From Halobacteriales archaeon QH_7_65_31 (lineage in GTDB: Archaea > Halobacteriota > Halobacteria > Halobacteriales > Haloarculaceae): a stretch of 64,000 nt of DNA. The notes beneath the pieces are model-generated. The model saw nothing but the letters and a program-made list of their open reading frames with translations. It was not told the origin of the DNA and did no database searches. The position numbers were made by a program, and so were the translations under genes. This document shows positions 58,883-62,372 of the stretch, piece by piece (position 1 is the first letter of the stretch; each line of letters starts with the position of its first letter). The stretch lies in contig PXQU01000004.1 of assembly GCA_003021785.1 (NCBI GenBank), positions 143,363-207,362 on the forward strand, written 5' to 3'.

Positions 58883-59695
58883 ATGGCAGACACCGGCGAC
58901 GGCCCGACGTACCAGCTCCTGTGGGCGCTGTATCTCACGACGGTCGTCGTGACGCTCGGGATTGCCGGACTCCTCACGACCGGTGTGCGCGGAGCGACCG
59001 TCCCGATCGTCGCCGTTTTCGGCAGCACCGGGCTGGTTGCGACGCTCGGGACGGTCCTCGGACTCCGTGGCGTTCCGGCGCGGCTCGCCCCGCGACCGCT
59101 GTACGCGAGTGGGGCCCGGCTGTTACCCGGGCTCGCCGGTCTCGGTCTCGCTGCTGTCGCCGTGGTGCTGCTGTTCGATCCGCTCCATCTCGCTCTCATC
59201 CCGGGAGGGGCCGCACTCCCACTCCTCTTCGGCGGTCTCGTGACCGCCGGTGTCGGTGGACTCATCGCGATCGTCGCGGCGAACGTCGAGGCGCGCGCTC
59301 GTCTCGACGGCGTCGAGGCGACCGAGTGGCGTGCCCGACCGGACGCGCGACGACGGCGCGCGTGGTACGCCGTCGCCGTCGCGCTGGCCGTCGTTCTGCT
59401 CGCCGCGTTCGCTGTAACCCGTGATGTCACACCGCTCATCTGGGTCAACTGCGTTGCCGTCGTCGCCGCACGGGGACACAACAGCCGCCGCTACTGGCTC
59501 ACCGACGAGGAGCTCTGCTACGGGGCGACGGAAACCTACCGCATCCTCGACAGAACGGATATCGCCGGCCTCCGCTTCGAGGACGACAGGCTCCGTATCG
59601 AGCGTCGCGGCTGGCGACCCGCGCTCACCTGTGATCTCGGGGCTATCGACGACTCCACGCGCGTCTGTGACGCCTTATCGGAGGAACGCGCGTAG
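58883..59695 (+). CDS. Multi-TM membrane protein
   Basis: Hydrophobic segments LLWALYLTTVVVTLGIAGLLTTGV etc. Confidence 0.7.
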   Translation: MADTGDGPTYQLLWALYLTTVVVTLGIAGLLTTGVRGATVPIVAVFGSTGLVATLGTVLGLRGVPARLAPRPLYASGARLLPGLAGLGLAAVAVVLLFDPLHLALIPGGAALPLLFGGLVTAGVGGLIAIVAANVEARARLDGVEATEWRARPDARRRRAWYAVAVALAVVLLAAFAVTRDVTPLIWVNCVAVVAARGHNSRRYWLTDEELCYGATETYRILDRTDIAGLRFEDDRLRIERRGWRPALTCDLGAIDDSTRVCDALSEERA

Positions 59696-60519
59696 CTCCG
59701 CCCGGAACCACTCGGGCTGATCGACGTGGACCCAGTGGCTCGCGCCCTCGCAGCGCGCGACGGTCGGAGCGCGACATCGTCGGTCCCCCACAGCAGCTTC
59801 GTCGGCACGGCGATACGATCCGGTGCGTCGAACGGTCGCCGGAGCGTCCGGCGTCCGAGCGCGCGGTAGTAGTTGAGACTCGCCGTGAGACCCCCCTCGC
59901 GTCGCCACGCGCCGAGATACCGCTCGGTGTCCGTGTCGTCGTGCCCGGAGAGGGGACGATACATCTCGCGGAGCGCTCGGTACTCGCGCGCCCGAAGGAG
60001 TCGCTCGGGGAGCCACGGGAGCTGGAACAGCCCCGCGTACCACGACCGAAGCAGCTGTCTGCCCCGAAGCTGTGCGGGGAGTCGTTCGGGGTCGAGCGTG
60101 TTCGCGACGGCCAGCCGCTCGATGCGGTCGGGGTGGTGGCGCGCGACGGAGAGCGCGAGCGAGCCGCCCCAGTCGTGCCCGACGAGCGTCGCCGTGCCGT
60201 CACCGAACCGGTCGATGAGGTCACACACGTCCGTCCGGAGTCCGTCGAGCCGGTAGGCGTCGACTCCTTCGGGCCGCGTCGACCGGTTGTAGCCGCGGAG
60301 ATCCGGCGCGACGACGCGGTACGTCTCGGCCAGCGGGGCGATGTGATCGCGCCACGTGTACCAGCAGTCGGGAAACCCGTGGAGCAGGAGGAGCAGGGGG
60401 CCACGCGTCGGGCCGGCAGCGACGTAGTGGATCGGGCCGACCGAGCAGTCGGCAAAGCCCACCTCGAAGCCCCGCTCGTCTGCCCACCGTTCTGCTGGAC
60501 CTGGCTCCGGGTGGCTCAT
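59675..60519 (-). pseudogene. Alpha/beta hydrolase (epoxide hydrolase-like) with a 3' frameshift
   Basis: GPLLLLLHGFPDCWYTWRDHI...ATLVGHDWGGSLALSVA...WGTDDVALRP in one frame; conserved C-terminus PTVARCEGASHWVHVDQPEWFRAELRAFLR* continues in another frame. Confidence 0.78.
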
Positions 60520-60669: not shown

Positions 60670-60760
60670 GCTGTGGCGACGATCCAGACAAGTAAGCTTG
60701 TGAACTACCCCACCCTACCGCTCGCCTGACGGCTCGCGCTTGAGGGTGGGGCTTCCTGCT
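60670..60760 (-). other. Right-end hairpin of the tnpB element (candidate 3' part of an omega/reRNA)
   Basis: ccccaccct...agggtgggg stem (9 bp) overlapping the tnpB stop; minus strand CCCCACCCTCAAGCGCGAGCCGTCAGGCGAGCGGTAGGGTGGGGTAGTTCACAAGC. Confidence 0.55.
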
Positions 60761-61990
60761 TCCACGACGCACTTTGCAGACACCGAGGTATCCACAGGGA
60801 GTGCAGTCTCCACAGGCGTTAATTCGGAGTGTCCCGCTCCTAACCGCTTCGTGATACCGCGAGCAAGAATATTCCACGCCGCGTTCGCGTCTCTATCCGC
60901 CTCAAAGCCACACGCTGGACAGGAGTGTTCACGGACCCACAGCGGTTTGTCCGTCGAGACGCCGCAGGACGCACACTCTTTGGTCGTTCCGCGTGGGTTC
61001 ACCGCCACGAAGTGCGTTCCTTCGCGTTCGCACTTGTACTCAAGCATCCGCCGGAACGTCCCCCACGCCGCTCCGGCGCGGTTTCGTGAGTTGCCCGGCA
61101 GTTCGATCAACCCCTTCGCGTCCAAGTCTTCGACTGCCACCAAGTCGTACTCAGTGGCGTAGTAGTTTGAGAGTTTGTGGAGGAAATCACGACGTTTTCG
61201 CTTGAGGTCGGCGTGGCGTTCGGCCACGACGCACCGCTGTTTCTCCCAATTCGCGGAACCGTGCTGTTTCCGTGAGAGGTCACGCTGTGCGCGTTCTAAT
61301 CGTTCGCGTTCGTCCGAGAGGTCGAGCGATTTGACGGCGATTCCGTCCGTGTCGTGGGCGTACGTGAGAATCCCCACGTCGATACCAACGCACTGCTCGG
61401 GATTCTCCGGTTTCTCCGGCGGGTCGTCAGGTGTTTCAACACCGAGGATGGCGTACCACTTGCCGGTGGGTTCGCGTTTGATGATGACGGTCTTGATGTC
61501 GGCGTCGTCGGGGGGATCACGGTGGACGGTGATGGGAATCTCGCCGAGTTTCGAGAGCCACAGTTGCGCCCGGCCACTCGTGTTTTTGAGTTCGAAGCCG
61601 TCATCAGAAATCGTAGATTTCTGATTGCCCATCAGACGTAGTCTGATGACCGGATTGACTGTAGGTGAAACTACGGTACTCGCCCTTACCTTTCCACTTG
61701 AGCGTCCCGACGTGGTAGCCGTTCTCTTTGCGCCCACGAAGTGTTGAGAGGTTGTTGTACAGCCGTTGTACGACTTTCTGAAGAACCTTCGAGTGGACAC
61801 TTTTCAGGTCGGTCCACCACTGCTTGAGACTCGGCAAGAGCTTCTGTTCGCTGTATGCTGAGGTGTCATCGGTGCGGTTGAGACGGTAAAGAAAGTGGTT
61901 GTAGACCTGCCGACAGGTATCGACAGTCCACGCTAACTGCTTTTCGAGAGCGTCGGACGGTCGGAGCCGATACCTGTAGTTGTAGTTCAT
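60715..61990 (-). mobile_element. tnpB: IS200/IS605-group tnpB (RNA-guided nuclease family), split into two ORFs by a two-hairpin insertion
   Basis: N-part 61604..61990 MNYNYRYRLRPSDALEKQLAWTVDTCRQVYNHFLYRL...GEYRSFTYSQSG; C-part 60715..about 61632 FELKNTSGRAQLWLSKLGEIPITVHR...GIDVGILTYAHD...LVAVEDLDAKGL...CASCGVSTDKPLWVREHSCPACGFEADRDANAAWNIL. Confidence 0.9.
61599..61650. repeat. About 52-bp two-hairpin insertion inside tnpB
   Basis: atcagaaatc-gta-gatttctgat (61603-61625) and catcagac-gta-gtctgatg (61630-61648), with outer gtcatcaga/tctgatgac inverted ends. Confidence 0.8.
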
Positions 61991-62191: not shown

Positions 62192-62313
62192 CTTGTGCGG
62201 CGTTACCGAGACGCGAAGCGTCTCGTTCGCACACCAGAAATCGAAGATTTCTGGGGACGTCCTCAGAAACGCGCCGCGTTTCTGATGGGCCGCACAAGAG
62301 CTTCGCTCTTGTG
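62192..62313. repeat. Cluster of perfect triloop hairpins enclosed by a 10-bp inverted repeat (cloverleaf-like)
   Basis: Closing arms cttgtgcggc (62192-62201)/gccgcacaag (62289-62298); hairpins 62207-62225 cgagacgc-gaa-gcgtctcg, 62234-62254 ccagaaatc-gaa-gatttctgg, 62263-62285 tcagaaacgc-gcc-gcgtttctga; overlapping fourth hairpin 62293-62313 cacaagagc-ttc-gctcttgtg. Confidence 0.85.
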
Positions 62314-62372
62314 AACGCTGTATCCCCTCCCTACTCGCTCCCTTCGGTCGCTCCTTGAGGGAGGGGCATTAG
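62310..62372 (-). other. Second copy of the tnpB right-end-like hairpin, without its own tnpB
   Basis: Minus strand CCCCTCCCTCAAGGAGCGACCGAAGGGAGCGAGTAGGGAGGGGATACAGCGTTCACAAG compared with the right end CCCCACCCTCAAGCGCGAGCCGTCAGGCGAGCGGTAGGGTGGGGTAGTTCACAAG. Confidence 0.6.

Follow-up and report, generated by a model that had tools for sequence, protein, structure and literature searches.

The interrupted tnpB gene

In the window (the whole stretch of 64,000 nucleotides analysed here) a minus-strand tnpB gene of the IS1341 type is split by a 52-bp insert composed of two perfect triloop hairpins, and the locus raises the question of what such an insert is: a normal part of this gene, a device that yields a two-piece enzyme, or a mobile element that has broken the gene. 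The two parts of tnpB and the ends of the surrounding element are as follows.

60708 to 60751, minus strand: right-end inverted repeat of the IS1341-type element (CCCCACCCT/AGGGTGGGG), from window repeat analysis
60715 to 61632, minus strand: C-part of tnpB, with a possible restart ATG at 61632-61630 (MGNQKSTISDDGFELK); Pfam OrfB_IS605 and Cas12f1-like_TNB
61604 to 61990, minus strand: N-part of tnpB, 128 amino acids of which the last 14 come from the insert, ending in TGA at 61606-61604; Pfam HTH_OrfB_IS605
62324 to 62366, minus strand: left-end inverted repeat of the IS1341-type element (CCCCTCCCT/AGGGAGGGG), from window repeat analysis

An earlier, sequence-only reading of this DNA had described a TGA and an ATG (61632) within the insert and a 29-nt overlap of the two tnpB frames there, and all three are found as described; the catalytic and zinc-finger motifs that it reported are also seen in the TnpB translation (GIDVG, VAVEDL, DRDANAAWN and CASC/CPAC). 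Elsewhere in the window, a minus-strand alpha/beta-hydrolase-like ORF at 59675-60519 is apparently frameshifted near 59760, and the sequence that probably forms its C-terminus (SHWVHVDQPEWFRAELRAFL) is read in a different frame. The insert has the following parts.

61599 to 61650, plus strand: insertion of 52 bp, comprising a two-hairpin core of 49 bp (61601-61649) and a single copy of the repeated CCG; covariance model E 9.8e-27
61603 to 61625, plus strand: hairpin 1, a perfect 10-bp stem (arms 61603-61612/61616-61625) with triloop GTA
61630 to 61648, plus strand: hairpin 2, a perfect 8-bp stem (arms 61630-61637/61641-61648) with triloop GTA
61598 to 61600, plus strand: left copy of the CCG direct repeat, from empty-site alignments and from repeats that covary with the target at other sites
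61650 to 61652, plus strand: right copy of the CCG direct repeat, from empty-site alignments and flank repeats at other sites

The extent of the insert, its two triloop hairpins and its 9-bp inverted ends (gtcatcaga/tctgatgac, 61600-61608/61642-61650) had all been placed correctly to the base. Folded as single-stranded DNA, 56 nt here give z scores of -5.9 (plus strand) and -6.5 (minus strand), and none of 200 shuffles equaled them.

Comparison of tnpB homologs with and without the insert shows that the hairpins are absent from the normal gene. Among the 80 nearest TnpB loci, drawn from named haloarchaeal genomes, 73 are single long frames without interruption, and those of the frames that were printed read through SQSG-F[EK]LKNT. 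Alignments of uninterrupted homologs to the two sides of the insertion point overlap by 3 bp, CCG (for example, G022:C33:8410-8528 and G016:C12:402980-403069), and the insert thus consists of the 49-bp core and one extra CCG. Several tnpBs do carry the insert at the same position, as they might if the hairpins were standard in this tnpB lineage, for instance as a conserved RNA structure, but the 73 uninterrupted genes effectively rule that out; in addition, Rfam has no match for the unit, G-U pairs are nearly absent from its stems, and copies lie outside tnpB (see below).

Structure of the two-hairpin unit

In 76 copies the unit has, with small variations, the form NNN/TC-hairpin1-TGCC-hairpin2-GA/NNN, a core near 50 bp, inverted ends TCRYCAGA/TCTGRYGA, and insertion lengths that are mostly 46-58 bp. 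Direct repeats of 2-3 bp flank 66 of the 76 (3 bp in 51, 2 bp in 15), and the other ten have no clear repeat. Repeats at sites other than that of the window include CTG, ACG, CGT, CA, and TG; where the left trimer is not CCG, a repeat is present in 21 of 27 copies, compared to 6.5 expected when right flanks are permuted, so the repeat follows the target.

The stems are strongly conserved as pairs: 97.2% of stem cells are paired, 465 cells have changes on both sides, and there are about six G-U pairs (some copies enter these counts twice, once per strand, and the alignment follows the covariance model). All ten pairs of hairpin 1 have changes on both sides across the copies, while its loops vary widely. 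The hairpins of the sequence-only reading thus stand as a conserved feature across copies (99.3% paired, covariation 0.357), whereas its 9-bp terminal inverted repeat is disfavored as one (90.3%, 0.107). RNA helices normally tolerate G-U pairs, so their near absence disfavors an RNA-level structure, and the pairing appears to be maintained in DNA, either because the DNA becomes single-stranded or forms cruciforms, or by templated correction between the arms. Among copies L284-L287, which lie in one genome, the loops vary and some are reverse complements of one another, while the stems are perfect; loop inversion is possible in these copies.

Distribution in haloarchaea

Sequences with 81-95% identity to the insert lie at other loci in other genomes. 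The sequence-only reading would have been refuted by hairpins in the normal tnpB of relatives or by a lack of comparable units elsewhere, and neither applies; such units proved abundant: a covariance model built from eight copies finds members in 354 of the 394 genomes of the order at E ≤ 1e-4, and at the same threshold in 362 of 394 genomes in a class-level draw, while a phylum-wide draw gave matches in only five genomes outside the order (best 1.4e-7). Strong copies, with E about 1e-25, are present in many genera, and there are up to 105 copies per genome (in a chosen genome set, with some places counted on both strands). Spread by viruses is not indicated, since no viral contig matched two exact unit patterns and no phage record gave a blastn match; blastn did match one plasmid record, that of Halorientalis sp. 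IM1011.

Other hairpin arrays lie in the window and in its genome (G000, which is about 97% covered, as separate unjoined stretches).

62201 to 62318, no strand assigned: four-hairpin array upstream of tnpB, composed of two oppositely oriented two-hairpin units; its size and position resemble those of SMR-A (see below)

This array of about 118 bp has stems of 8-11 bp, and its two related units lie around GGACGTCC; the covariance model matches 62201-62261 (minus strand, E 2.6e-9) and 62256-62297 (plus strand, E 0.001). Arrays of two to four hairpins in similar style, with stems of 8-10 bp and few-base spacing, are found elsewhere in the genome (L023:17930-18031, L042:11651-11695, L076:12506-12554, L078:9835-9881, and L118:11736-11782). 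Genome-wide, perfect triloop palindromes are only slightly in excess, and bare-hairpin counts and a mirror-repeat control were uninformative.

Targets and repeated insertion

The majority of strong copies lie inside IS605-type elements, at recurrent tnpB positions or within the palindrome at the right end, cccggcgtttacGCCGggcg; tnpB contexts are slightly overcounted, since a reference used in the tally contained a translated insert. The target sequence in tnpB is GAAGCCGGATTG, and the contexts of the copies define these sites.

S1: SQSG/FELK, the site occupied in the window
S2: before ALDIGAN
S3 and S4: DxNA/A, entered in both orientations

Copies also occur outside IS605-type elements, for example at L230 in a frame that by its translation is aldo-keto-reductase-like. 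In two pairs of loci little else is shared: L299 and L300, in one genome, have only 78 bp in common, and L264 and L265, in different genomes, only 72 bp, in each case the unit and a short target. In a tree of 79 TnpBs, well-supported branches force a minimum of five changes for the S1 insertion, and a narrower TnpB tree requires two. A single ancestral insertion at S1 is therefore disfavored, and repeated entry at one nucleotide position follows unless precise losses have been frequent; the five changes could include such losses. One tnpB (L209) has two family insertions, at 730-781 and 1553-1614, which occupy S1 and S4.

Insert length modulo 3 is 0 in 20 copies, 1 in 42, and 2 in four. Several S4 inserts are in frame and free of stops; those of L275 and L277 through L282 are all 51 nt long, and these TnpBs may have a 17-residue extra loop at S4.

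Is the interrupted TnpB functional?

The sequence-only reading had proposed a miniature palindromic element that may allow a split, reinitiated TnpB. The element stands firmly: its copies are dispersed, have direct repeats, and recur at particular sites; the split TnpB is possible but improbable. It would have the insert produce two cooperating proteins, through the TGA and a restart at ATG 61632, or would have a +1 shift at TTC/TGA-T join the frames, so that TnpB function survives. The two frames do overlap through the insert, and apart from the insert neither tnpB half has a lesion in the window, L245, L248, or L251. However, the stop and the ATG derive from the element's own sequence (CCCATCAG, on the other strand), because the window subtype has CATCAG in hairpin 2, and a strong RNA stem encloses the ATG. 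Of the nine copies at S1, four (clade L209/L341/L352/L292) are a 58-bp variant, and where these were examined by frame (L209, L289, which is the same place as L352, and L292) the N-part continues past the insert and the 40 codons before the C-part contain no ATG, GTG, or TTG. Units also lie in either orientation relative to tnpB, which together with the mostly out-of-frame lengths argues against translational bypassing as a general rule.

Low dN/dS in the two halves of tnpBs that bear the insert (mostly 0.06-0.27; 0.28-0.35 for the C-part of L292) is uninformative for independent recent insertions, and since by the tree the insertions are separate and possibly recent, selection before insertion explains it in most copies. 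Within the clade L209/L341/L352, dN/dS is 0.06-0.17 in most comparisons, and L209, L352, and L292 have an altered flank, CCA/CCG, in common, which suggests one older insertion in this clade. These values hint that tnpB may have continued to function there, although the inserts are near-alike outside their loops and so may be recent. Residual expression by reinitiation or frameshifting is possible. It is nevertheless improbable that interrupted tnpBs in general stay functional under selection, as two pieces or with an extra linker, by way of reinitiation, +1 frameshifting, bypass, or removal of the unit from the RNA, and we judge the two-protein or frame-joining version for the window equally unpromising. 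The window insert probably breaks tnpB rather than making a working two-piece enzyme; most likely it inactivated the gene in one IS1341-type element, and as neither half has another lesion this inactivation would be recent.

A candidate mobilizing enzyme

No mobilizing enzyme was identified for the unit. The candidate considered was the Y1 transposase, by means of PF01797 counts and some neighboring positions: the unit could be a small IS200/IS605 relative moved by Y1 TnpA through a single-strand mechanism, in the manner of REPINs and PATEs, its apparent repeats being matching cleavage sites. Paired hairpins maintained in DNA, targets concentrated in IS605-type elements, and copies that adjoin Y1 genes (for example, in G128, G242, G390, and G399) are consistent with this, as is a Spearman correlation of 0.42 between Y1 and unit copy numbers in a genome set selected for extremes. 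On the other hand, seven genomes with 11-42 copies have no Y1 match, some genomes with Y1 lack the unit, and the direct repeats track the target (CTG/CTG, ACG/ACG, CA, TG), whereas IS605-type elements cause no target duplications (PMC3119063). The Y1 explanation is thus possible but rather doubtful. The genome of the window has only a broken Y1 fragment (G000:C9:54284-54472, with two stops), which lies about 2.5 kb from a hairpin array.

Most probable nature of the unit

As far as sequence comparison can tell, the insert is very likely one copy of a mobile element that is non-coding and non-autonomous, a pair of neighboring DNA hairpins whose core spans about 50 bp. The comparisons show the unit dispersed among haloarchaea and entering the same sites repeatedly. 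A mobile element is the best explanation because it accounts together for the dispersal, the direct repeats, the empty sites, the at least five changes at S1, the presence of the unit in the same target within otherwise unrelated DNA, and the perfect stems. Such a unit would move in trans by way of an enzyme that recognizes its DNA hairpins, probably while they are single-stranded. The unit may accumulate in IS605-type transposons because they contain the target and the damage is tolerated, and perhaps it travels onward with its host transposon.

If this is right, few known mobile DNA units are as small; the unit spans nearly a whole archaeal order, and aims perfect DNA hairpins at the commonest transposons of haloarchaea. 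It would offer a defined system for the movement of a 50-bp hairpin pair, the enzyme that reads it, and any restraint that it places on IS605/TnpB elements. It also calls for caution in annotation, as haloarchaeal tnpBs that seem split or frameshifted can be insertions of this unit.

Comparison with known elements

A description of the 50-bp unit was not found in the incomplete set of papers searched. REPINs, which are mobilized by RAYT transposases in bacteria, likewise join two palindromes in one small non-autonomous mobile unit; REPs are mainly extragenic, whereas many copies of the present unit lie in genes. Rickettsia palindromic elements lie within protein genes, as do the in-frame, stop-free copies at tnpB S4, but the unit is shorter and archaeal, and most of its copies are out of frame. 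With MITEs it has in common its shortness, lack of coding capacity, inverted ends, and direct repeats, although it is unusually small for one. A derivative of IS200/IS605 would be expected to show no duplication and fixed end cleavage sites, whereas the right flank of the unit varies with the left.

By their descriptions, the nearest known kind are the SMR-A and PATE elements of Haloquadratum. SMR-A of Haloquadratum walsbyi is a transposase-free element of about 110 bp with terminal inverted repeats, which inserts in near-terminal palindromes of IS605-type elements and PATEs and is reported without target duplication (PMC3119063). The unit resembles it in having no transposase, in its inverted ends, and in its preference for IS605-type elements, many copies being in tnpB or the right-end palindrome; it is set apart from SMR-A as described by its core of less than half that length, its 2-3-bp direct repeats, and its frequent use of tnpB coding positions as targets. 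PATEs, which include 52-bp terminal-only forms, carry IS605 end sequences, have no terminal inverted repeats, and are reported without target duplications (PMC3119063, Dyall-Smith et al.). Like them the unit is very short, palindromic, non-coding, and IS605-associated; unlike them it has inverted ends and direct repeats, and its CAGA hairpins do not resemble the ends of the IS1341-type element in which the window copy lies.
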